This document shows positions 189-40,261 of a stretch of DNA of 40,458 bases, in pieces. The notes beneath the pieces are model-generated. The model did no database searches. It was not told the origin of the DNA and worked only from the letters and a program-made list of their open reading frames with translations. The position numbers and the translations under genes were made by a program. Origin of the DNA: a virus; the IMG/VR virus record IMGVR_UViG_3300045995_000309, positions 1-40,458 of that record. One strand, 5' to 3'. Every line of letters starts with the position of its first letter. The first letter of the stretch is position 1.

Positions 189-833
189 GTGGATATACAC
201 GAACAATTTTTAGTAAAAGCGTTTGCAACCGACCTCACCAACGAACTTCGCGGGGAGTTTGATTGGCGGCAAGAAGGGAAATCCATGTATCATTGGATTT
301 CACCACCCGCCATTCCCGAAGGATTTGAGGACGCAATGGGAGAGATTGCCGAAGAAAAGTTACAGGAGGCATTAAAAAGGACTCGATATGTTGAAAAAGT
401 CCAGAAAAAATATAATAAGATGGTTACGGAAATATCCGTAAGCACATCAGTTAAATCCCTTCTTTTGCAATTGCTTGCGGCTCATTATGAGGAAGTATTT
501 ATCATTCAACCATGGATTCGGTATTATGTACGGCTTGCGGAGAAGGCAAAAACATATACTCCGCCGATAAAAGAGGACAAAATTACCGATGCCGATATTG
601 TCCGGGCTAAGGAATATCCGCTTGACCGTCTTATCACCCAACATTTATATCGCTCCGGCCGCGATTTTATCTGCCATTGCCCATTTCATGAGGAACGAAC
701 GCCCTCATTTCATATCTATCTGGATGATAACCGCTATTTTTGCTTTGGATGTGGGAAGTGGGGAGATGCCATTACCTATGTCATGGAAACGGAAAAGGTT
801 GATTTCCTTACTGCCGTCAGGAGGCTCCAATGA
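189..833 (+). CDS. CHC2 zinc-finger primase-like protein, no TOPRIM domain
   Basis: The last third (about residues 155-205) has the DnaG-type CHC2 zinc finger: C-H-C-P-F-H, then T-P-S-F, then C-F-G-C-G and the G-D-A motif that follows it. In bacterial primases this domain recognises the priming sequence. The 214-aa protein ends right after the finger, so the catalytic TOPRIM domain is absent and is not obvious next door. Residues 1-150 are charged and helical-looking and I do not recognise them. The start is GTG at 189, since no other start fits. The only ribosome-binding candidate lies inside the leader stem (177-184). It overlaps the helicase gene by 4 bp (ATGA), so the two probably act together in replication initiation. 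Confidence 0.7.
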   Translation: MDIHEQFLVKAFATDLTNELRGEFDWRQEGKSMYHWISPPAIPEGFEDAMGEIAEEKLQEALKRTRYVEKVQKKYNKMVTEISVSTSVKSLLLQLLAAHYEEVFIIQPWIRYYVRLAEKAKTYTPPIKEDKITDADIVRAKEYPLDRLITQHLYRSGRDFICHCPFHEERTPSFHIYLDDNRYFCFGCGKWGDAITYVMETEKVDFLTAVRRLQ

Positions 834-2296
834 AAAGCACATTTGAGAAAGCCGAGGCCATTATCAAAAAAACGAATAAACAAATCAAGGAAAAAGAGGG
901 CAAAATCGTATACACCTCCTATGTGGAAACCGAAAAAAGTATCCTAGAACAGTTGAATCATGCAACACATGCAACACATGCAACTGTTGCAACCGAAACC
1001 AATTTTATAATATATGATAAACTGACAGCCTCAATTGACTATTTGACCGAGTTTGAATACCACGGAACGACATATAAGCCCATAGTTGATGATTTATTAT
1101 CGACCGGCGTTATCCTATTGCCCTCTGGTATTGAGGAATATACCGATACGGCCACGCTCGCTGGAGAAATATATGATTTTTTATATGAAAACTTTGAGGT
1201 TCCGGCGTTCTATCAACAGTTTTTGCCCTATATTGTCATGTTTTCGTGGGTATACGAGAAGTTTCCCTTTGTCCCTTATCTTCATTTTGTTGGCCTGACG
1301 GGTACTGGCAAGACGACGGCGGCCGAAGCCGTTACTGCCCTTTGCTATAAACCAATAGATGCCGCGGGAGCCATTACTATGTCGCCGATATTCCGCATGG
1401 CGAGCTCATGGCGAGGCACCCTCTTTTTAGACGAGTTTGAGCCGGGGGGCGATAATTATTCGGAAATGATTGCGTTTCTTAAGTCGGGGGTAGGGAACAG
1501 GGCGGTACTCCGCACTGAGGGCGACAGGAAGCGTGAAGTGAAGGCATACCTTATTAAATCAATGAAGATATTTACCTCGGAGCACCCTATTCCCAACGCG
1601 GGGCTACGGAGTCGCATGTTTGTCATTGAAATGGAGAAAAGCACCCGCCGGATTCCACTTATTAAACAACAGAGATTCTATGATAAGGCACAAATACTAC
1701 GAAATAAGCTCCTATTATGGCGCTTGCGGAACTTCCCACAGATTGACCTGACAAAGATAGAATATGGCTACCCAGAGTTTTCAACATTCGATAGGAGGGT
1801 ACAGCAGGTGCTCACCCCCGTTTATTATCTATCAGACGAAGCATCACGGAAAACCATCTTGGAATTTGCTAAAACTCAGGAGCTTGAAACGAAGCGGGAG
1901 CGGGCAGAAAGCATTGAGGGAGAGGTATTTCAGATAATAAGCGACATGCTTCCGGCCGACCCATCCCTAAAACAGATTGCCGATAAACTCAATATCGACC
2001 GAAGCCGTAAGCCCGTTACGGAAAAGCGGATAGCCAATGTTGTCCGACAAATACTACACTTTGATATAAAAAGGGTAGGGCATGATATGGTAAGCACTGT
2101 TTTGATAAGCGAAAAGCCGGAACGGGTACAAGATTTATCCGAGTATTTTGGGGTAGAGTTGGTTCCCGTTGCAGGCGTTGCAAGTGTTGCACGTGTTGCA
2201 AATGGGGAAATGGAGCCTATTGACGCGCCGGAAGATGCAACACATGAACAAGGAGAGATTTTAGACGAAAATGGGGTGCCTTATGAGAACCGTTAA
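830..2296 (+). CDS. Replicative AAA+/SF3-like helicase
   Basis: A P-loop ATPase core is visible: Walker A G-L-T-G-T-G-K-T-T near residues 155-163, Walker B L-F-L-D-E-F near 200, and a later K-I-F-T-S segment followed by an arginine-rich stretch that could hold sensor and arginine-finger residues. This arrangement is typical of phage and plasmid superfamily 3 or D5-like helicases that partner a primase. The 488-aa length fits. The N-terminus carries H-A-T triplets (about residues 44-52) and the C-terminus a V-A-x repeat (about 446-457). Both are encoded by 9-bp DNA repeats that may have a DNA-level role. The start at 830 is preceded by GGAGG and overlaps the upstream stop. The C-terminal residues resemble a winged-helix tail but I cannot assign it. 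Confidence 0.7.
   Translation: MKSTFEKAEAIIKKTNKQIKEKEGKIVYTSYVETEKSILEQLNHATHATHATVATETNFIIYDKLTASIDYLTEFEYHGTTYKPIVDDLLSTGVILLPSGIEEYTDTATLAGEIYDFLYENFEVPAFYQQFLPYIVMFSWVYEKFPFVPYLHFVGLTGTGKTTAAEAVTALCYKPIDAAGAITMSPIFRMASSWRGTLFLDEFEPGGDNYSEMIAFLKSGVGNRAVLRTEGDRKREVKAYLIKSMKIFTSEHPIPNAGLRSRMFVIEMEKSTRRIPLIKQQRFYDKAQILRNKLLLWRLRNFPQIDLTKIEYGYPEFSTFDRRVQQVLTPVYYLSDEASRKTILEFAKTQELETKRERAESIEGEVFQIISDMLPADPSLKQIADKLNIDRSRKPVTEKRIANVVRQILHFDIKRVGHDMVSTVLISEKPERVQDLSEYFGVELVPVAGVASVARVANGEMEPIDAPEDATHEQGEILDENGVPYENR
961..993 (+). repeat. Iteron-like array A (TGCAAC x4, 9-bp period)
   Basis: The hexamer TGCAAC occurs at 961, 970, 979 and 988, always 9 bp apart, and the last copy is part of the palindrome GTTGCAAC (986-993). 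It lies inside the 5' part of the helicase gene. Array B at the 3' end is its mirror image. Confidence 0.75.
2168..2200 (-). repeat. Iteron-like array B (GTTGCA x4, inverted to array A)
   Basis: GTTGCA, the reverse complement of the array A hexamer, occurs at 2168, 2177, 2186 and 2195, again every 9 bp. One further copy in array A orientation lies at 2236-2241. Equal copy number, equal period and opposite orientation at the two ends of one gene suggest binding sites for an initiator or partition protein. Confidence 0.75.
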
Positions 2297-2378
2297 AGTA
2301 TGCCCTAATTGTAAAAGAATCTATGTATCTGGAAAGGGAAAACTTTGCCGGAAATGCAATCCCTTAAAAAGAACATGA
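2283..2378 (+). CDS. 31-aa zinc-ribbon micro-protein
   Basis: A 31-codon frame starts at ATG 2283 inside the helicase 3' end and stops at 2376-2378. It reads C-P-N-C, then about 11 residues, then C-R-K-C, a minimal four-cysteine zinc ribbon. Its stop overlaps the ATG of the next gene (ATGA, 2375-2378), the coupling seen throughout this operon. A purine run (GGGGTG) precedes the start. The function is unknown; it may bind nucleic acid or a partner protein. Confidence 0.55.
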   Translation: MRTVKVCPNCKRIYVSGKGKLCRKCNPLKRT

Positions 2379-2663
2379 GATTTATAGATTTATTTGCCGG
2401 TATTGGAGGATTTCATTATGGGATTGAAAAGGCTGGGGATACAAAGGAAAAACTCAGTGTCGCAAGCGAAAATACATACTCCCGAACAGATAAGCCAAAC
2501 ACTAATATCGGGAATGGGAAAAGGATATGGTGGGGGGAGAACCATGATTATCGGAGGTCTACAGAAACACCAAACACCACGAACGGATGGGATAAGCCCG
2601 ACAGTTCCGACAGCAGGAGGGGGAAGACACATACCGCAGATAATGGACAAGACTTAAACAATA

Positions 2664-2672
2664 TGGTATCAT
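2664..2672 (+). promoter_or_regulatory. Leaderless extended -10 of nested HNH gene
   Basis: TGG (2664-2666) followed by TATCAT (2667-2672) sits exactly 6 bp before ATG 2679. This is the same geometry as on many late genes, but on the plus strand. Confidence 0.6.
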
Positions 2673-2678
2673 ACACTC

Positions 2679-3020
2679 ATGGAAAAGATGGCAAACTGGA
2701 TGACCGAACATTGGAGAGCAAGGAGAAATTACGGGAAGAAAACGAACAAATGTACGGTATGCCACGAAATAAAAAGAACGGAAATCCATCATCTAAACGA
2801 CAACTGGCACGACAATCGGGTGGAGAACTTAGCGGAGATATGTCGGAGTTGTCATACGAGACTTCACAGAAAAAGACCATTATGCAAGGTGGTGGGGTGC
2901 GAGAAGATACATCGGAGGAACGGATATTGCGAGAAACACAGTCAACGCTTCAAGAAATACGGCAATCCGATGATGTTCAAGAGAAACCAACACAGCCCGA
3001 TTATCGTATTAGAAGATTGA
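2679..3020 (+). CDS. HNH endonuclease nested in methyltransferase remnant
   Basis: This 113-aa frame is out of phase with the methyltransferase frame. It has C25-x2-C28, H37-H38, N46, N50 and C55-x2-C58-H59, the zinc ribbon and beta-beta-alpha metal core of HNH nucleases. A second zinc finger (C-x4-C-x9-C-x2-H) follows, as often seen in phage free-standing HNH proteins. It ends almost where the recognisable C-terminal methyltransferase motif begins, so the gene lies between two conserved blocks. It has no Shine-Dalgarno but its own -10 box 6 bp upstream. It is likely a homing endonuclease. Confidence 0.85.
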   Translation: MEKMANWMTEHWRARRNYGKKTNKCTVCHEIKRTEIHHLNDNWHDNRVENLAEICRSCHTRLHRKRPLCKVVGCEKIHRRNGYCEKHSQRFKKYGNPMMFKRNQHSPIIVLED

Positions 3021-3162
3021 CGGTTGTTGAATGTGAACGCCTACAAGGCTTTCCGGACAACTGGACTCAATACGGAGCAGATGGGGAACTGATAAGCGAC
3101 ACGCAAAGGTATAAGATGGCGGGCAACGCCGTGACTGTGAATGTCATCACCGCTATCGTTTC

Positions 3163-3179
3163 GAGGCTAAAATAGCCTC
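3163..3179 (+). terminator. Short hairpin over methyltransferase stop codon
   Basis: GAGGCTA (3163-3169) and TAGCCTC (3173-3179) form a 7-bp stem with a 3-nt loop that includes the stop codon. The following ATTATTG is only a weak U tract, so termination is possible but unproven. Confidence 0.3.
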
Positions 3180-4895: not shown

Positions 4896-5457
4896 CAATT
4901 ACCATATCAGCCATCATTCATGGCTGAACAAAATGCTTGGGGTGGAAACGATTACAACGCCTGCGATGTCCTCCGGCAAGGAAGCCCACAGGGTTATTCA
5001 GGACCATTGCCTTGGCAAAAAGAAAGACGAGCGCCTCGCCGATTTCCAATGGACATTTACCAATGCAGAGAAGCACGTTATCCGGCCGTGGGATGACAAG
5101 TTCAATCTTCATGGATTTATTGACCTTATCGCCTACAACAGCAAGGTCATTGCCGAGATAAAAACCGGAACTCCCTGGAGCCAGCGAAAGTTCGCAGATA
5201 GTTTTCAATGGCGGTATTACTGCATGCTCACCGGCTTCCGCAAAGCGCTGATGATAACCTGTCGCTTTGATTTGTCGGAGTTTAAGACCTACTACTTTGA
5301 GGCAACTGAGGAAGATATCAAAAGGACAGAGGTGTGGGTGAATGAGGCAATCGCCGGGATAGAGGCCGGTAAGTTCAAGGATGACCTCGATGAGAATGGC
5401 GTCTGTACCCTCCCATACTGCCCCTACGGCGACGCCTGCCGATTCAAAGCAATATGA
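4858..5457 (+). CDS. RecB/Cas4-like PD-(D/E)xK exonuclease
   Basis: The protein shows the family order: G-K-E-A-H (about residues 40-45), G-F-I-D-L (about 86-90), A-E-I-K-T-G (about 99-104) and Q-W-R-Y-Y. The D, E and K are the metal-binding catalytic residues. The C-terminus has a cysteine cluster (C-x5-C-x5-C) reminiscent of the iron-sulphur ends of Cas4/AddB-type nucleases, but a fourth ligand is not evident. At 199 aa it is the size of phage recombination exonucleases and would supply single strands to the annealing protein at 3714. An AAAGGAGG site precedes ATG 4858. Confidence 0.8.
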   Translation: MEKKITLSYTAINNYHISHHSWLNKMLGVETITTPAMSSGKEAHRVIQDHCLGKKKDERLADFQWTFTNAEKHVIRPWDDKFNLHGFIDLIAYNSKVIAEIKTGTPWSQRKFADSFQWRYYCMLTGFRKALMITCRFDLSEFKTYYFEATEEDIKRTEVWVNEAIAGIEAGKFKDDLDENGVCTLPYCPYGDACRFKAI

Positions 5458-5642
5458 AGTTCTGGGAAGTACAAAGCGCATCAATACCGGGAAAGAAATA
5501 TATTGTCCGTGAATACCGCGGACGCCTCCGCTGTTCTTGCCCCCGTTGGATATTTACCGGAACCTGTAAACACGAACAAAAAATACTGCAACTGTTGAGA
5601 GGAGGTGAAATATATGGGAACACAGAAAACAACAAATTATGA
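5454..5642 (+). CDS. Stand-alone SWIM zinc-finger protein, 62 aa
   Basis: The whole protein is essentially one SWIM domain: C27-x-C29 ... C38-x-H40. In larger proteins SWIM domains bind DNA or proteins. A second phage protein (30591-31124) has the same domain, including the upstream P-G-K-x-Y-x-V signature (here residues 12-18). The gene is coupled to the nuclease gene by ATGA and overlaps the next gene by 29 bp. A role as a recombination mediator alongside the annealase and nuclease is plausible, since SWIM proteins act in recombination elsewhere, but this is inference. Confidence 0.75.
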   Translation: MKFWEVQSASIPGKKYIVREYRGRLRCSCPRWIFTGTCKHEQKILQLLRGGEIYGNTENNKL

Positions 5643-6300
5643 CCTGTTCAAAAAGATTGAGGGAAACCGGGAATTAAATCCGGCACACCTCGCGAAACTA
5701 GCTCTTAGCATTGCGAAGAAAAACCTGCTCGAATATGCGCCGATAATGGTAAATGAATCCATGGAAGTTATTGATGGACAACACCGCCTAGAAGTGGCTC
5801 GTAAATCAAAACTCCCTATTTATTATACCATCGTGCCGAGTGCGGGACTGGATGAAGTCATTGAACTCAACACGACACTCCGTAACTGGAGGCTGTCAGA
5901 TTTCGTGGATAGTATGATTGTCAAAGGGAATAAGACAATGGCATATCTGCGGGAGTTCTGTGATGAGTACAATTTATCTTTATCATCAGGAATTATCCTG
6001 CACGTGGGAGGAGTTGCGGGACAACACCTAAACTCTGTCGCTCTCCTGCAACGATTATCGTTTAATGAGAGTCAAAGAGAAAAAGCGCTTAAAGGCGCAG
6101 ACCTCCTGTTCGATATCCGACAGCTCAGTAACCGGAAAGGGGCGCTCCCCCGGGCCGTGGTATATACATGCCGGAGAGTAGTTGAAGAGGAAAAAGATAT
6201 CGCGGTGAGTAAAGCGATTAAAGCGCGCGGGAAATTGGTAGCGATTATTGCGGACCAGGAAAAGATGTACGAGATTTTAACGAGCTATTTGACCAAATAG
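5614..6300 (+). CDS. ParB/Srx-like nuclease-fold protein
   Basis: Near residues 50-62 the protein has V-I-D-G-Q-H-R-L-E-V-A, the ParB/sulfiredoxin-like CTP/ATP-binding signature (G-x-H-R) seen in plasmid partition proteins and in phage ParB-like nucleases. The rest (228 aa from ATG 5614) is helical and lacks an obvious HTH. ATG 5614 is preferred because GAGGAGG lies just upstream. It might act in segregation or as a nuclease or regulator. The mirrored hexamer arrays in the helicase gene are possible DNA targets, which is untested. Confidence 0.7.
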   Translation: MGTQKTTNYDLFKKIEGNRELNPAHLAKLALSIAKKNLLEYAPIMVNESMEVIDGQHRLEVARKSKLPIYYTIVPSAGLDEVIELNTTLRNWRLSDFVDSMIVKGNKTMAYLREFCDEYNLSLSSGIILHVGGVAGQHLNSVALLQRLSFNESQREKALKGADLLFDIRQLSNRKGALPRAVVYTCRRVVEEEKDIAVSKAIKARGKLVAIIADQEKMYEILTSYLTK

Positions 6301-6304
6301 TTTA

Positions 6305-6338
6305 TTTTTACACCGGGGCTTCGCGGCCCCGGTAAAAA
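6305..6338 (+). other. GC-rich hairpin after ParB-like gene
   Basis: ACCGGGGC (6312-6319) and GCCCCGGT (6326-6333) form a perfect 8-bp stem with a 6-nt loop, and outer TTTTTA (6305-6310) can pair with TAAAAA (6333-6338). Neither strand has a U tract after the stem, so it is not a normal intrinsic terminator. It may protect the 3' end of the upstream mRNA. Confidence 0.6.
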
Positions 6339-6347
6339 GTAAATTAG

Positions 6348-6353
6348 TATAAT
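6348..6353 (+). promoter_or_regulatory. Leaderless -10 for zinc-ribbon gene
   Basis: TATAAT lies 6 bp before ATG 6360, with no Shine-Dalgarno and no TGn extension. An in-frame ATG at 6354 directly abuts the box. Confidence 0.5.
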
Positions 6354-6359
6354 ATGGCT

Positions 6360-6461
6360 ATGAAATCTAAACCTATTCGCTTCTGCCGCTTCTGCGGAAA
6401 ACTACTGCCAAATAAAAAAGGAATAGTCCGTTGCGTTTCCTGCGGACGGATAAACGCATGA
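6360..6461 (+). CDS. 33-aa zinc-ribbon micro-protein
   Basis: The frame reads F-C-R-F-C-G, then about 12 residues, then C-V-S-C-G, a compact four-cysteine zinc ribbon resembling the 31-aa protein at 2283. Its stop overlaps the next start (ATGA, 6458-6461). It has a TATAAT 6 bp upstream and no ribosome-binding site, matching the leaderless pattern. Function unknown. Confidence 0.55.
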   Translation: MKSKPIRFCRFCGKLLPNKKGIVRCVSCGRINA

Positions 6462-21590: not shown

Positions 21591-22829
21591 TTAAAAGAAA
21601 ATCTGCATTTGTAATGGGTCGCCTCCCGGTGCCGGTGCTGCGCTCGTCCAGTTTGTTCCGTCCGATTGTAGCACGTTTCCGCTAGTCCCCGGAGCCGCCA
21701 TGGAAACAGTCCCCGCGGGGAACGTGAAAGCGGTTGTGCCTGTCGTTAAAAGTGAGAGCGCGTTTGATGCTGAGAATGTAATAACCTCACCACCACCAAG
21801 CGTTATCGCATTGGTATTGAGGGTCGTGGAATCGCTGAGTGTCAGTGTTTTACCATTTCCCAGCGCTACTGAACCTGTGGCGATTGTCGCACTATCGGAA
21901 ACCGTGAGCGTTTTCCCTGCGGTTATAGAAGCTCCTGTCACCGTTCCCGCATTGCCTGTGACTGACCCTGCTATGGCATTTGTAGAGGTAATATCGGTAA
22001 ACCATCCATGGGTGACACGGGAACCGGTTGCGCCCACATCGCCGGTTGTCAGGAGATTGTGTACTCCCAGATTGAGGTCGGCAGTAGCTCCCGTATAGGG
22101 AACACCTGAAGCGGGAACCGTTTGCCATGAGGGAGCAGCACCATTCGTTCCGTCCCCGGTCATAGCGAGAAACTTTTGTCCAATAGTCGTATTAGGGGAC
22201 AGGAGTGATGTGACATTCACGTTTGATTGATAGGGGAGGGCTCCGAGTAATGTTGTATTGTTGCCGCCATCAAGATTTGTAGCGGTTGCCGCGTTCCCGG
22301 TAATACTCCCGGCAATCGCATTTGTTGCTGTTATATCTGTTGCCCATAACTTTGTCAGTCGTGCGCCCGTTAATCCTATTGTTTGTCCTACTGTTTGGTC
22401 TGTGGTAACGAGTCCCACAAGGCTCTGGTCGCCGGTATTATTCCCCGATACGGTCGCATCAAGGGGAACCGTCAATGTTTTCGGTGTAGCACCACCGGCG
22501 ATAGTAAATCCGACTGTTTGCGATGCAAGCGTCAGTCCATTGACGGAGGTCGGGGTAATAATACCTAAGGTAAGGGTAATAGCCGCGTTCCCGGTCGGGT
22601 CGGCGACCGAACCGGATACCCCATTTGCTGTGGTGACTGCGACGGAGGTTACTGTGCCCGAGCCCGCACCTGCACTTGTGGCAAGAAGCGCATGCGTTGT
22701 AGGGTCAGCCCAGATGACAACGGGCGTAATGCCATCAACATCGGACACTCCGAGGAGTGTGGTTACAAAATTAGCATCTCTTTTAGCTTCACTTATTGTT
22801 CTATCCTCTGACTTTCTGGGATTTCCCAA
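21591..22829 (-). CDS. Tail fibre, 3' part of an HNH-split gene
   Basis: The 412-aa product is Thr/Ser/Gly/Ala-rich with repeated N-A-I-A-G-S-x-T-G-N-A and L-T-x-S-D-S units, typical of elongated trimeric fibres. Near its start it has D-A-N-F-V-T-T-L-L-G-V-S plus D-G-I-T-P-V, the third copy of a module whose first two copies form the gene at 23293-23565, beyond the HNH gene. The start is uncertain: the frame begins at TTG 22829, overlapping the HNH end by 37 bp, without a ribosome-binding site. It was probably one fibre gene originally. Confidence 0.65.
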   Translation of the reverse strand: MGNPRKSEDRTISEAKRDANFVTTLLGVSDVDGITPVVIWADPTTHALLATSAGAGSGTVTSVAVTTANGVSGSVADPTGNAAITLTLGIITPTSVNGLTLASQTVGFTIAGGATPKTLTVPLDATVSGNNTGDQSLVGLVTTDQTVGQTIGLTGARLTKLWATDITATNAIAGSITGNAATATNLDGGNNTTLLGALPYQSNVNVTSLLSPNTTIGQKFLAMTGDGTNGAAPSWQTVPASGVPYTGATADLNLGVHNLLTTGDVGATGSRVTHGWFTDITSTNAIAGSVTGNAGTVTGASITAGKTLTVSDSATIATGSVALGNGKTLTLSDSTTLNTNAITLGGGEVITFSASNALSLLTTGTTAFTFPAGTVSMAAPGTSGNVLQSDGTNWTSAAPAPGGDPLQMQIFF

Positions 22830-23296
22830 ATAAATAATTTCTTAGTATCGTATGCTTTATGATGCTTGGGACAAAGCGGAAGATAATCGGTCATATCCGC
22901 ATATTTACCAGTAAGGTTCGCCCAATGATTTCCGTGTTTCCCGCCGAGTGAACCACAATAATCACATGGAGGAGTTTTTCCAAGTCGCCTATGTAATGAA
23001 CGATAACTTGCATTATCACCTTTCCATTGATAAGCATTTTCTCCTGCTATTTCTGGCATATTTTTCCCTTTATTCCATGCAATTTTTCCTTTCATGCGGA
23101 TACTCATGGCCTGCCGTCCTTTTTCGGATTTGCTATATGTAATCAATTTTTCTAGATTTTCAGGTATTACCTTATGCACATTTTCCATGTGTTTTCTATA
23201 ATCTGCATCTTGCCACTTTTTCTTATTAGAACAGGATAAACATCGTATTCCAAATACGCTTTTCTCTTTATGACAATCAATGCAAAAGTGTTTCAT
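22793..23296 (-). CDS. HNH endonuclease inserted in fibre gene
   Basis: The start is ATG 23296, overlapping the upstream stop (ATGA). The N-terminus has a C-x2-C ... C-x2-C zinc ribbon (C-I-D-C, C-L-S-C). A middle NUMOD-like segment reads K-G-K-I-A-W-N-K-G-K. The C-terminal HNH core is C-D-Y-C-G ... H-W-A-N ... L-C-P-K-H-H-K. At 167 aa it fits phage homing nucleases. The inserted DNA is barely longer than the gene and leaves no room for an intron. Confidence 0.85.
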   Translation of the reverse strand: MKHFCIDCHKEKSVFGIRCLSCSNKKKWQDADYRKHMENVHKVIPENLEKLITYSKSEKGRQAMSIRMKGKIAWNKGKNMPEIAGENAYQWKGDNASYRSLHRRLGKTPPCDYCGSLGGKHGNHWANLTGKYADMTDYLPLCPKHHKAYDTKKLFIWEIPESQRIEQ

Positions 23297-23565
23297 ATTA
23301 TTTTTAGAAATAATGCCTGTGTTGTCGGATTTGCATAAATTGCGATAGGCATGGTGCCGTCTGCACTTGACGCACAAATAAGCGTCGTTACATGATTTTC
23401 ATCCCTGCGCGCCAGTCCGGTAATACCAAATCCTGTTGCATTGGTCGTGGTTTTGAGGGCATGGGTAAAGGGGTCGGCCATAATAGCGACGGGAGTTTTT
23501 CCGTCAACTGAAGAAACGCCAAGAACGGAGTGAACATAGTTGGAATCATAAACTGCCTGCGCCAT
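23293..23565 (-). CDS. Fibre N-terminal fragment with tandem module
   Basis: The 90-aa product holds two copies of one module: D-S-N-Y-V-H-S-V-L-G-V-S with T-P-V-A-I-M-A-D-P-F-T-H-A-L, and D-E-N-H-V-T-T-L with M-P-I-A-I-Y-A-N-P-T-T-Q-A-L. A third copy begins the gene at 21591-22829, so this looks like the N-terminal attachment part of a fibre cut off by the HNH gene. It may be functional as a separate chain. Expression is predicted leaderless. Confidence 0.65.
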   Translation of the reverse strand: MAQAVYDSNYVHSVLGVSSVDGKTPVAIMADPFTHALKTTTNATGFGITGLARRDENHVTTLICASSADGTMPIAIYANPTTQALFLKII

Positions 23566-28002: not shown

Positions 28003-28461
28003 TTATAATTTTTTCCGTGTACTCCAGTACTTATTTTTTCGAACCTCGGTCATAAAAAGGGACTGACGTTTCCGTGCTTCTGGATTTTTCCAATGAATAT
28101 CTGCATGCTCTATAGCCGTTACTAAACGCAGATTTTCAATTCGATTATCCGTTCTATTTCCGTTTAGGTGATGGATGACTTCACTTGGAAGTAAATACCT
28201 TCCCAGCTTATCTTCCATTACTAGACGGTGCTCCGCTACATATCCTAATGCGTTTTTATAAGGATGTTCTAGATTTTTTATCCAGATATATCCTTCCGTA
28301 TTCAGGGTGCGGCCACCTTTCCAATTCGGATTTGTTTCTCCCTTTTGACCATAGCGTAAAGTCTTTATAACTTTATCCCTATGTTCCTTTGTTAAAGTCC
28401 TGCCCTTATGGGCTATCGACATTTTTAACCGAGCTTCTATCGTATGGTGATAGTGTTTCAT
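28003..28461 (-). CDS. HNH endonuclease between capsid and decoration genes
   Basis: The N-terminal segment has NUMOD3-like repeats (R-L-K-M-S-I-A-H-K-G, H-R-D-K-V-I-K). The HNH_3-type core follows: A-E-H-R-L-V-M-E, then V-I-H-H-L-N-G-N-R-T-D-N-R-I-E-N-L. The 152-aa size fits free-standing phage homing nucleases. It has its own TGG + TATGAT box 6 bp before ATG 28461 and no Shine-Dalgarno. Confidence 0.9.
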   Translation of the reverse strand: MKHYHHTIEARLKMSIAHKGRTLTKEHRDKVIKTLRYGQKGETNPNWKGGRTLNTEGYIWIKNLEHPYKNALGYVAEHRLVMEDKLGRYLLPSEVIHHLNGNRTDNRIENLRLVTAIEHADIHWKNPEARKRQSLFMTEVRKNKYWSTRKKL

Positions 28462-34963: not shown

Positions 34964-35431
34964 CTATATGTTATTCAACGTGGCGTATGCTCCGTATTTT
35001 TGTTTCGCCGCGATATCTCTCGCTCGCGCAGCTTCTATTTTAGTAGCGAAGTTGCCAATAGGTATACATTTACCATGAGAGAATGTCCCTGCGCGCCATG
35101 GATGGGATTTGTTATTTGGTATATGCCAAACTCCGATATAGCCCGATGTATTGTCTACTCTTAACTTCATGTGCTGTTGATTATTCTTACGTGTACAAAT
35201 CCGCATATTTTTTTTCCGATTGTCAAGGGTATTATGATTGATGTGGTCTACTATCTTATTTGGGGGACAATTCATTATCACGCGGTGCATATAGATACAT
35301 TCTTTATGTGGCATTCTCATCGCATAACCTGTTTGGGCATTAACAAAGCTCCATTTGTGTTTTGACAATTCTAAATAGTCATCGTCATCAACAATTGCTC
35401 GCTTGTGACGCGTCAGAGGTATGTATTTCAT
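34964..35431 (-). CDS. HNH endonuclease with AP2 DNA-binding domain
   Basis: Residues about 47-87 form the HNH core (H-R-V-I-M, V-D-H-I-N-H-N-T-L-D-N-R). Residues about 95-153 form an AP2 domain (S-G-Y-I-G-V-W ... W-R-A ... I-G-N-F ... A-A-R-A-R-D). This HNH-AP2 pairing is typical of phage homing nucleases. It lies just downstream of the large terminase gene and has its own TGG + TATAAA box 6 bp before ATG 35431. Confidence 0.9.
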   Translation of the reverse strand: MKYIPLTRHKRAIVDDDDYLELSKHKWSFVNAQTGYAMRMPHKECIYMHRVIMNCPPNKIVDHINHNTLDNRKKNMRICTRKNNQQHMKLRVDNTSGYIGVWHIPNNKSHPWRAGTFSHGKCIPIGNFATKIEAARARDIAAKQKYGAYATLNNI

Positions 35432-35462: not shown

Positions 35463-36899
35463 TCAAGGTTTATAATATGGTTTCCCTTTCATTTCCCCGA
35501 ACTTCGCGGGGTCTAGCGATATATAATCACCTTTGTCATTGACGATTTGGTATTTCGGTATCATGATGTTGCGGCTTCTGTTGGTTACCGCGCCGCTTTT
35601 TGCATCTACCCATTTGACCATTGCCGTGAGATACCGGAGGGCGTCATACCAGTGGTCATCCTGCCAGTCGGCCGCGACATCCTCAGTGTTGTGTTCGTCA
35701 TACATCGCCTCAGGAATAGTTTTGATAAGATTTCTACAATTATCGGCAACAATCATATAGGGCTCCCCATCGGGGGCAAGCGATAGCCAGTTGTGGATAG
35801 TTGTGATGCCGTTTAGTCGGTTGTTGGTGGATTTTGATATATACAGACCCTCCCGCTTGAACTGGTCGGCGATAGAGAAACTGGTGTCTTGAAGTCTATT
35901 GAACATTGCCGGGTCGCCGTAGATTTTGGCTTTGGCTACATCAGAATGTGTGTGATACACATTGGCCCATTGCCGTGGGGTCATCTCTGAGCCGTCTATT
36001 TCTTTATAGATATAGAGTTTATTGAAAGTAAGCCCTTCCAGTTTTTGCGGCTTAAATACGCCGAGGAGCAGAACCGTTGGAGCATTGTATCCCCAATCCA
36101 TACCTCCAACGAGAGTAAGTCCCTCCTTGGGGATAAAGGGGTTGCAGACGTGGATAACTCGGTTAAACTCGGTGAATACCTGCCCCTCAAAGATATCCCA
36201 TGAGCCGTAGAGATAGGCTTTCTTTTTGTTTTCCGGGAGGCTTTCAAGTTGTTTAATGTAGGTTTCCGAAACATACTTATTATCATACACATTTGCATGG
36301 ACATAATAAAATCTATCCCGCTCCGGGTCGTTATTTATCCTATCCACAAACAGTTTTCTCACCCACCCATGACCTATGCCGCCCGGGTTGCTCACACCCA
36401 AAAACTTTACATCTTCTATACCGGGATATCGCATACGATTGCGTAAATCCTGAAACGTCTGCTCATTGTTTCGAGTCAGTTCGTCTACAAAAATTGCCGC
36501 AAACTCAGTAGACATATACTTTGCGGGGTCATCGAGGTTGCGAAGGAGGATAATGCCGCCGCCCCACTTGTCTTTGAGCTTAAAAGATAATCCACTTATT
36601 GCATCATCCCGTAAATCTCCGAGCCACGGAGGAAACTCGCGCTTCATACGACTGATTTGTCGGTCTTTGAGCGTGGGATAGTCCTCTGAGAATAAGCCTA
36701 TTGGTACCCCAAAGATTTTATGTTTTCCCCAATAATACATTGCAAGGCCCACCGCGGCCCACCGAAGAAGGTAGCTTTTCCCACCCGCCATAGAACCACC
36801 CCATAGTAAATACTTAGTCTTAGGGTCAAGAAGTGTATGCCATGCTAACTCTTGTTTCTTTTGAAAATGGGCAATTTGTGAAAGGTTTGGGTCATCCAT
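35463..36899 (-). CDS. terL: Terminase large subunit
   Basis: ATG 36899 (M-D-D-P-N-L) is preferred over an upstream in-frame start. The ATPase half has Walker A G-S-M-A-G-G-K-S (about residues 35-42) and Walker B I-F-V-D-E (D139, E140). The nuclease half has G-G-M-D-W-G (D268), I-Y-G-D-P and D-D-H-W-Y-D-A. It pumps DNA into the head and cuts concatemers. A TATAAA box lies 7 bp before the start, without TGn. HNH genes lie directly on both sides. Confidence 0.95.
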   Translation of the reverse strand: MDDPNLSQIAHFQKKQELAWHTLLDPKTKYLLWGGSMAGGKSYLLRWAAVGLAMYYWGKHKIFGVPIGLFSEDYPTLKDRQISRMKREFPPWLGDLRDDAISGLSFKLKDKWGGGIILLRNLDDPAKYMSTEFAAIFVDELTRNNEQTFQDLRNRMRYPGIEDVKFLGVSNPGGIGHGWVRKLFVDRINNDPERDRFYYVHANVYDNKYVSETYIKQLESLPENKKKAYLYGSWDIFEGQVFTEFNRVIHVCNPFIPKEGLTLVGGMDWGYNAPTVLLLGVFKPQKLEGLTFNKLYIYKEIDGSEMTPRQWANVYHTHSDVAKAKIYGDPAMFNRLQDTSFSIADQFKREGLYISKSTNNRLNGITTIHNWLSLAPDGEPYMIVADNCRNLIKTIPEAMYDEHNTEDVAADWQDDHWYDALRYLTAMVKWVDAKSGAVTNRSRNIMIPKYQIVNDKGDYISLDPAKFGEMKGKPYYKP

Positions 36900-37326
36900 G
36901 AATATGTTTATAGGTACCAATCCTATGTTCTAATTTTACATGTTCGCTTTTATTTTTAATTAACCTCAAGTTTTCAGGTGCATTATTCCATCCATTGCCG
37001 TCAATATGGTGCACTTCTTCTTCTGGTGTTAAATAACGACCTAGTTTTTGTTCCATGACATAACGATGTTCCCGATAATAACCACGTTTAGCATAAGGAT
37101 GAGTAGGCATACGCAATTCTTTATATTTTCCTCCACGACCACAATATCTCCACCCTTTCCATCGGGGATGCGCTGGGCCGGCGCGGAATGAGGTTGAATT
37201 AACTTTACTGATATGTCCAGTCTTAAATAAAGTTATGGGGTCAGAGCATTTTTTGGAACAATACTTTTTGTCCCAAGAAAGATAGGTTCTAAAGGATTTT
37301 CCACAGACAATACAATTATTTGTCAC
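36892..37326 (-). CDS. HNH endonuclease between terminase genes
   Basis: The start is GTG 37326. An N-terminal C-I-V-C ... C-S-K-K-C zinc ribbon is followed by an HNH_3-type core (R-E-H-R-Y-V-M-E, V-H-H-I-D-G-N-G-W-N-N-A-P-E-N-L). It separates the small and large terminase genes and overlaps the latter by 8 bp. TGA + TATCAT lies 6 bp before the GTG, the same geometry as ATG-started genes. Confidence 0.9.
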   Translation of the reverse strand: MTNNCIVCGKSFRTYLSWDKKYCSKKCSDPITLFKTGHISKVNSTSFRAGPAHPRWKGWRYCGRGGKYKELRMPTHPYAKRGYYREHRYVMEQKLGRYLTPEEEVHHIDGNGWNNAPENLRLIKNKSEHVKLEHRIGTYKHIHG

Positions 37327-38540: not shown

Positions 38541-38981
38541 TTATTTGTATCTATTAAATGCGGATTGCCGCATCTTCTCAATAGTTTTAGCACTAAACTT
38601 TCTTCCAAGCATTATTTTCCGCATATATTTTTTATGTTTTTCCGTATGATGTTTACCTAAAAAACTCTTCCCTCCTACTCCAAACTTATTTCCTATATTA
38701 TGTAATGTCCGATGTTCAGAATTGGTTAGTATTTTAAGATTTTCAATTCGATTGTCAATTTTTATGCCGTTAAGATGATGGACACATTCATATTTCTGTA
38801 AATATCTGCCGATTTTTTGCTCCATAACCAATCGGTGTTCCATAATTCGTCCATTTTTATTGGCGAATGGGTGACTAGGTTTCCATATTGAAATATATCC
38901 ATCAACCGTTACTGTACGGCCGCCTTTCCAAGTAGAGTGTTTTTCTCCTTTATATTTCTCTAACCACGGTATATCTGTCAT
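38541..38981 (-). CDS. HNH endonuclease
   Basis: The 146-aa protein has a central HNH_3-type core (M-E-H-R-L-V-M-E, C-V-H-H-L-N-G-I-K-I-D-N-R-I-E-N-L) and a C-terminal NUMOD3-like region (G-K-H-H-T-E-K-H-K). It resembles the HNH proteins at 28003 and 36892, so all three probably derive from one family. A TGT + TATACT box lies 7 bp before ATG 38981. Confidence 0.9.
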   Translation of the reverse strand: MTDIPWLEKYKGEKHSTWKGGRTVTVDGYISIWKPSHPFANKNGRIMEHRLVMEQKIGRYLQKYECVHHLNGIKIDNRIENLKILTNSEHRTLHNIGNKFGVGGKSFLGKHHTEKHKKYMRKIMLGRKFSAKTIEKMRQSAFNRYK

Positions 38982-39343: not shown

Positions 39344-39810
39344 CGTCTTATTATAGTCCTTTTGTCAATTTTTGTTTTTCGGTGTACCTGTGCGAGCTTT
39401 GAAAACTTTAACTGTGATGTTTCTTCGAGTGCGAGTTCTTTGGGCTTTTTGGGAATTGCATATTTATGAATTACCGTAAATCCGCCTTTGTTTGCATAAT
39501 CTAAAGTGGTCAGTAAATCTTCAAAATGGAGAAAGGCGTAAATATCTTCTCCGTTACGGGAAAGAACAAGAATGGGCATTTTATTTCCACATTTACCTTT
39601 TGTTTCTTTCCACCATGCAAGAGGAGTCCATGTTTCCCGATTTTTAAGCTCAAAATGTATGGGGAGCTTCGTAGTAATATCTTCACGCATCCATGGAATC
39701 GCACCGGACAATGGTGTTCGTTGAGCCCCTTTATCTAATCCTGTATCCCGCAATCTTTGAGCTACATTTCTTTCAAGCCGAGTTCCTTTTTGTTTTGCGG
39801 ATTTAAGCAT
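39340..39810 (-). CDS. Holliday-junction-resolvase-like nuclease
   Basis: The N-terminal third resembles archaeal Hjc and phage PD-(D/E)xK nucleases: K-G-T-R-L-E-R-N-V-A-Q-R-L-R (E13 region), then E-D-I-T-T-K-L-P-I-H-F-E-L-K-N (about residues 43-57), where D, E and K are the metal site. At 156 aa it fits a resolvase that trims DNA branches before packaging, in keeping with the terminase genes downstream. It overlaps the HNH gene before it by 8 bp. Confidence 0.65.
   Translation of the reverse strand: MLKSAKQKGTRLERNVAQRLRDTGLDKGAQRTPLSGAIPWMREDITTKLPIHFELKNRETWTPLAWWKETKGKCGNKMPILVLSRNGEDIYAFLHFEDLLTTLDYANKGGFTVIHKYAIPKKPKELALEETSQLKFSKLAQVHRKTKIDKRTIIRR
39350..39355 (-). promoter_or_regulatory. 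Leaderless -10 inside upstream gene end
   Basis: TATAAT on the minus strand lies 6 bp before ATG 39343, inside the last codons of the resolvase-like gene. There is no TGn. Confidence 0.45.
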
Positions 39811-40261
39811 ATCTGGCGCGTAAATAAAAATCTAATTTTCTATGACATTTTTCACATAATGTCGTCATATTATCTGCGTCAATTCTATATTGCACAAAAA
39901 TTGAGAATGGGAACCAATGATGAGCAAATAATTTTCCTCCAATTTGTCCGCATGATACACAGGTATAATTGTCACGTTTCATTACATATTGGCGCATAGC
40001 AACGTACTCATCAGAATCCCGTATTTTTTTATTTTCAGTCTTTATTCCGCCGTGCCAGTTCGGATTGTCTTTACCCGTATATCCCACGTTCCTGCATAAC
40101 ATCGAGCAGTATTTTTTCCTAGAACTTGCGTTCCGCCATTGTTTGATAAATTTTCCACACGTTTTACATGGAACCCATGGGATATATTCTTTGAACCATG
40201 TTTTTTGTGTTGCATACCCGCGTGTATCTCCCGCCTTGTTAATCTTTGGTGGTACTAACAT
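39803..40261 (-). CDS. HNH endonuclease with zinc ribbon
   Basis: The N-terminus holds C-K-T-C-G-K-F ... C-S-M-L-C-R zinc ligands. The C-terminal HNH core is C-V-S-C-G ... H-H-W-F-P-F ... L-C-E-K-C-H-R. It resembles the HNH at 22793 in ending with L-C-x-K-C/H-H. It has an AGAGGAAG site rather than a -10 box, and it overlaps the HTH gene before it by 23 bp. Confidence 0.85.
   Translation of the reverse strand: MLVPPKINKAGDTRGYATQKTWFKEYIPWVPCKTCGKFIKQWRNASSRKKYCSMLCRNVGYTGKDNPNWHGGIKTENKKIRDSDEYVAMRQYVMKRDNYTCVSCGQIGGKLFAHHWFPFSIFVQYRIDADNMTTLCEKCHRKLDFYLRARYA

Follow-up and report, generated by a model that had tools for sequence, protein, structure and literature searches.

Codon-phased, mirrored repeat arrays at both ends of a phage helicase gene as probable replication-origin iterons

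An IMG/VR virus record (IMGVR_UViG_3300045995_000309), analysed here over a stretch of 40,458 nucleotides (the window), carries two arrays of a short repeat with a 9-bp period inside a single helicase gene, one near each end and in opposite orientation. The locus raises the question whether these repeats serve the DNA or the protein and, if the DNA, which process they belong to. We conclude that they are probably replication-origin iterons, most likely bound by the helicase whose gene contains them, and put the probability of this reading at roughly 0.72.

Array 1 (961–994, forward strand) consists of four TGCAAC units at 961, 970, 979 and 988, of which units one and two read TGCAACACA. Array 2 (2167–2200, reverse strand) likewise has four units with a period of 9, seen as GTTGCA at 2168, 2177, 2186 and 2195, and is directly followed by a lone forward unit, again TGCAACACA (2236–2244, forward strand). 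The original prediction of four TGCAAC copies, four inverted GTTGCA copies, a common 9-bp period and a fifth TGCAAC at 2236 was right to the base. The conserved unit exceeds the hexamer and comprises TGCAACAC plus one nucleotide (for example CATGCAACACATGCAACA), and array 1 contains an inverted copy at 986–991 by way of the palindrome GTTGCAAC. Array 1, array 2 and the lone unit all lie within the helicase open reading frame (830–2296), array 1 being 1.2 kb upstream of the 3′ cluster; array 2 and the lone unit fall within the final 130 bp of the gene, array 2 in the part that encodes the C-terminal tail of the helicase. As had also been predicted, the two arrays are read in different frames and appear in the protein as H-A-T and V-A-x repeats, namely HAT HAT HAT VAT in array 1 and VAG VAS VAR VAN in array 2.

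An array caller based on TGYNACA units (period 9, at least three units) called these two arrays and no others across the 40,458 bases, and it called none when the window was Markov-shuffled 200 times; both arrays were recovered by Tandem Repeats Finder too. Within the first 8 kb, the strongest repeated-hexamer window is formed by array 2 and the forward unit at the helicase 3′ end. Over the whole window, TGCAAC occurs 51 times, with 19 copies expected from dinucleotide shuffles and 33 under an order-4 model; 23 copies read as ..GCA-AC.. codons (Ala-Thr/Asn), many of them in tail proteins. We rejected this window-wide enrichment as a signal because it reflects mostly ordinary coding sequence, and what counts as evidence is therefore that the units are phased at 9 bp and mirrored, rather than how often the hexamer occurs. 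An A+T-rich stretch accompanies each array: positions 1001–1100, directly after array 1, have 31% G+C and are among the lowest-G+C 100-bp windows within the first 8 kb, and positions 2242–2400, adjoining array 2, have 36% G+C compared with 46% overall, a composition that makes the latter a possible strand-opening site. GC skew was rejected as evidence for an origin, since its turning points coincide with the gene-strand switch and the skew check is thus uninformative.

The gene that hosts both arrays (830–2296, forward strand) encodes a P-loop (AAA+-like) helicase of 488 amino acids, whose Walker A (GLTGTGKTT, residues 155–163) and Walker B (FLDEFE) motifs were read from the sequence. Directly upstream, with a 4-base overlap, lies the gene of a CHC2 zinc-finger (DnaG-type) primase (189–833, forward strand; Pfam PF01807, E = 2.7e-22; PHROG DNA primase, E = 5.5e-21). 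The helicase has no significant match in Pfam or PHROG, giving weak AAA hits only (E 0.04–0.14). Profile comparisons with DUF927 phage helicases (hhalign probability 2.7%) and with VapE helicases were negative, the D5/DUF5906 primase-helicases giving the only moderate match (hhalign probability 74%, E = 2.7e-5). The full-length AlphaFold2 model of the helicase reached a pLDDT of 32, its alignment being of insufficient depth; the highest-scoring portion of this model corresponds to positions 1913–2071 (forward strand), a predicted HTH-like candidate for the repeat-reading domain, which when modelled singly reached a pLDDT of 71 and a pTM of 0.65 with helices as for an HTH. A PDB fold search with the C-terminal domain model gave no significant match. 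We propose, with low-to-modest confidence in the structure prediction, that this C-terminal HTH domain is the reader of the repeats.

A period-9 scan for TGCAAC alone was rejected as unspecific, returning mainly collagen-like GAT proteins, NAT/SAT tail proteins and LQQLERLQ repeat proteins, and ACAC and the mirrored layout were therefore added to the pattern. Open reading frames containing long LQQLERLQ repeats, with a 9-bp period in the DNA, were seen in L016, L038, L039, L043, L056, L074, L095 and L119, in several of which a DYRDV motif then follows. Collecting arrays by DNA pattern alone and not by gene, we found at least 120 IMG/VR stretches with three TGYNACAC units at period 9, for a chance estimate of well under one. 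Among the matches listed, many arrays fall between genes, and every reading frame and either strand is represented; where the contig has a recognisable primase/helicase, the array is mostly found 20–430 bp past that gene or within its final tenth, the exceptions in the same list being four related contigs with the array ~300 bp upstream and a few arrays 1–4 kb away. The neighbouring proteins belong to different families: DUF927+HTH_56 (Cch), VapE/Prim-Pol, DUF5906/D5, AAA_25 and DnaB. Mirrored TGCAAC arrays at most ~30 bp apart were found in 22 plus 10 stretches (~0.01 estimated by chance); they include sites 4–10 bp past the helicase gene (L246, L247) and inside the helicase tail (L253).

We located the most over-represented hexamer window of the whole locus in 19 helicase loci, mostly from named phages, and in 14 of them it coincided with the helicase 3′ end (2.7 expected, p ~1e-8; the p value is optimistic, since related phages are included). 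The repeated word varies by phage (GTTGCA, GTGACA, GGTTAC, GTGAAA, GGTGCA and others), as would be expected were every helicase to recognise a site of its own. No 3′ repeat cluster is present in Mycobacterium phages Feyre and Kratio, Microbacterium phage Wheelie or Rctr41k, and the strongest repeat of RcCWillis is 1.4 kb beyond the helicase 3′ end, so that the rule of a 3′ cluster is not universal. On the Desulfocapsa sulfexigens plasmid NC_020305, which carries a distant relative, 12 GGTGCA copies stand just past the CHC2-helicase gene (L242:5540–5935) in what, from its sequence, looks like an unannotated origin.

Placement also bears on the possibility that the arrays are operator sites, whose binding by a phage regulator or by the helicase itself would govern how the primase-helicase operon is transcribed, without any role as an origin. 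Such a role would suit array 1, which is near the start of the helicase gene, and it would suit one related marine group of 29 contigs, in which a single TGTCACACT/TGTTACACT triplet array stands between divergent genes, ~60–200 bp upstream of one that is terminase-like (L125, L142, L143, L180, L191 and 24 other IMG/VR contigs). Most arrays with a nearby recognisable primase/helicase, however, are at or past its 3′ end and not at a promoter among the matches listed, and in the window both arrays are within coding sequence, array 2 at the end of the gene. We consider the operator explanation unlikely.

Which gene the arrays travel with can be read from the one close relative found in IMG/VR (L001/G001, 40,454 bases), whose helicase has 72% protein identity; whole-protein and core profiles found no close relative of the helicase in 84,980 species genomes. 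The arrays of this relative occupy the same two places of the helicase gene, and a pair of arrays separated by 1.2 kb, one per gene end, was found only in the window and in this genome. Otherwise the relative is mostly a different phage, sharing few other genes at ~37–60% identity, among them a 179-aa early protein and a PD-(D/E)XK (Cas4-like) protein. Across its 40 kb, period-9 TGCNACA pairs are confined to the two arrays at the helicase ends, which shows that the arrays go with the helicase and argues against a ParB partition site and against a pac site. No ParB-like, CHC2 primase or large-terminase match was found in these 40 kb though the helicase was detected, empty searches of this kind weighing less than a positive match. 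The early gene order is common to both genomes; in the relative this block crosses the end of the record (L278, L279), an indication that the genome may be circular or terminally redundant.

A packaging (pac) site would be recognised by the small terminase subunit, and pac sites are often situated in terminase genes. In other phages, mirrored TGCAAC arrays do occur in a small-terminase gene (L244:1565–2446; also L256, L259 and L263), where they fall in the linker between the HTH and Terminase_2 domains in two frames (ECN, VAN) and are candidate pac or self-regulation sites. Together with the marine arrays upstream of a terminase-like gene, they show that motifs of this class also have settings other than helicases. 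The arrays of the window, however, are kilobases away from its terminase genes and co-vary with the 72%-identical helicase, whereas no match to the large terminase was found in the relative and the presumed small terminase, a 107-aa protein upstream of the large terminase named by its position, matches over 74 aa at 38% identity. A packaging function is accordingly very unlikely.

That selection acts on the DNA more than on the protein had been part of the original prediction, and comparison of the repeat units upholds it. In the relative, array 1 (5123–5156) is degenerate, with one complete and one partly matching TGCGACA unit. Its array 2 (6329–6362, minus strand) consists of three copies of TGCGACACT plus TGCTACA, so that TGCGACA stands in three of the four units, and two forward TGCGACA units follow at 6386 and 6407. 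Between the window and the relative, both arrays, irrespective of strand, have changed from TGCAACA to mostly TGCGACA units (A:G counts at unit position 4 are 9:0 for the window against 1:7 for the relative; Fisher p = 0.0004). In each array the substitution is silent, turning Ala GCA into GCG in forward units and Val GTT into GTC in inverted units, and it opposes the AT-rich codon use of the relative, in which GC3 is 31.5% (window, 46.7%) and, apart from the arrays, GCG is used in 3 of 17 Ala codons and GTC in 2 of 24 Val codons. A concerted synonymous change of this kind is expected from a shared DNA-binding protein and is not predicted by protein-level selection.

Cultured phages provide the second line of evidence, keeping the motif across reading frames. 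In-gene arrays are present in RecA-type helicases unrelated to that of the window (L002, L253, L206 and the cultured Squashvirus phages of Microbacterium), as mirrored arrays after a C-terminal HTH. In the Squashvirus phages Fizzles, StrawberryJamm and Nike, mirrored TGTCACA/TGTGACA arrays with a 9-bp period lie in the C-terminal tail of the helicase. The left array of StrawberryJamm, TGTCACACC, is read as VTP, and units and arrangement are identical in Nike, Namago and Blab; in Fizzles, TGTCACA is retained at this position but translated in a different frame, as VSQ, its right-hand TGTGACA array still giving VTP/VTL. In Wilca, the helicase gene is shorter and the units stand at and past the stop codon. 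The DNA word of the Squashvirus arrays is conserved and the peptide is not; within a single gene of L002, the hexamer GTTGCA occurs in two different frames. Squashvirus and the window thus share mirrored 9-bp-period arrays inside a helicase gene, but the Squashvirus helicase is of RecA type (AAA_25) and both of its arrays are together at the 3′ end. Among the papers found in literature searches, none describes the Squashvirus arrays, and searches on the motif strings gave primer-like or unrelated matches only.

Were the arrays nothing more than low-complexity linkers of the protein, generated by slippage and selected, if at all, at the protein level, one would point to the amino-acid repeats (xAT, VAx), which are recognisable in the relative too, and to the many chance-like TGCAAC repeats that are collagen-like GAT or NAT protein repeats. 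The synonymous change in concert, in arrays of opposite orientation and different frames, the survival of the Squashvirus motif through a change of frame and the two frames of L002 nevertheless make this explanation very improbable. The partition (parS-like) site that the original prediction had offered as an alternative, to be bound by the ParB-like protein encoded at 5605–6300 (PHROG E = 1.6e-33), is not supported and is very improbable, for the arrays follow the helicase, none is near the ParB-like gene, and the relative keeps both arrays in concert with no ParB match found in its 40,454 bases.

The reading of the arrays as a replication origin, by contrast, is well supported by their position, by the relatives and by published precedents (PMC7581432). 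Its basis is observed here: the sites, their phasing, selection at the DNA level, linkage to the helicase and the same 3′-terminal placement in many phage primase/helicase genes. From this basis we infer the identity of the binding protein, origin activity, helicase loading, unwinding and looping. The C-terminal HTH domain of the helicase would bind the TGCAACAC units, and the 3′ cluster (four inverted units and one forward unit, beside an A+T-rich stretch) would load helicase rings and act as the core origin, a role assigned to it because its position agrees with other phages. The CHC2 primase encoded just upstream would then prime. The 5′ forward array would be bound by the same protein and might either loop to the 3′ cluster or mediate self-control of the operon by the helicase. 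As 9 bp equal three codons, the sites fit into coding sequence as harmless tripeptides (HAT, VAx) in linker and tail regions.

The SaPI Rep and SCCmec Cch2 helicases bind, through their C-terminal domain, iterons directly downstream of their own gene (PMC7581432). The window resembles them in that short direct repeats mark the 3′ end of a helicase gene, the helicase has an AAA+/P-loop core (Walker A and B) and a separate primase is encoded beside it; a C-terminal DNA-binding domain like theirs is proposed from the predicted HTH-like fold. It differs in that the repeats form part of the coding sequence, a further array is at the 5′ end, and the helicase has no detectable match to the DUF927/HTH_56 (Cch) models. 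P4 alpha is a primase-helicase that recognises origin repeats, as proposed for the helicase of the window, but its primase is of another type and no sequence match to the window was found. P4 requires two separated repeat regions, ori and crr, to which the two separated arrays of the window may be likened, and its repeats have been reported outside the alpha gene. P4 alpha binds the origin repeats with a winged helix (PMC4234260), and the lambda origin is described as lying within the initiator gene (PMC7157519). Like the iterons of lambda O and its lambdoid relatives, which are embedded in the initiator coding sequence, the arrays of the window are inside an open reading frame (830–2296) and under DNA-level selection; the helicase shows no homology to lambda O, having no Pfam or PHROG match. 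Lambda O is not a helicase, and lambda iterons are ~18 bp long and form one cluster, whereas the unit of the window has a codon-sized 9-bp period and its arrays are mirrored and placed at both gene ends. By analogy, the window fits a mixture of the SaPI/SCCmec, P4 and lambda layouts, in which an initiator helicase would bind repeats in its own tail. New relative to known iterons are the codon phasing and the mirrored orientation of these arrays, together with their location inside the helicase gene and at each of its ends.

A wider generalisation is tentative, and we hold it to be a real possibility, at slightly under even chances: phages with unrelated helicases may repeatedly have sited their origin in or just after the helicase 3′ tail by means of a 9-bp, codon-phased, mirrored iteron (TGYNACAC), the VTP, VAS, HAT and VSQ repeats of helicase tails being origin DNA read as protein, and in the window the 5′ array may turn this into a looped two-ended origin. 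If this is true, the origins of many uncultured phages could be read from sequence, through codon-phased mirrored repeats at the primase/helicase 3′ end; odd tripeptide repeats in these proteins would be DNA signals and not protein features; a gene-dense genome would be seen to hold an origin without non-coding space; and one origin layout would connect helicases of several families. The cultured Microbacterium phages make the origin idea directly testable.

Two further features of the window were observed outside the arrays. The frame of a C5 cytosine methylase (2345–3175) matches the methylase model only in two pieces and overlaps an HNH-like open reading frame in another frame (2679–3020); it may carry an insertion. 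Further HNH endonuclease-like open reading frames, identified by eye alone from paired His and zinc-type Cys motifs, are at 22793–23377, 28003–28461, 34964–35431, 36892–37326, 38541–38981 and 39803–40261, a large number for a 40-kb phage.
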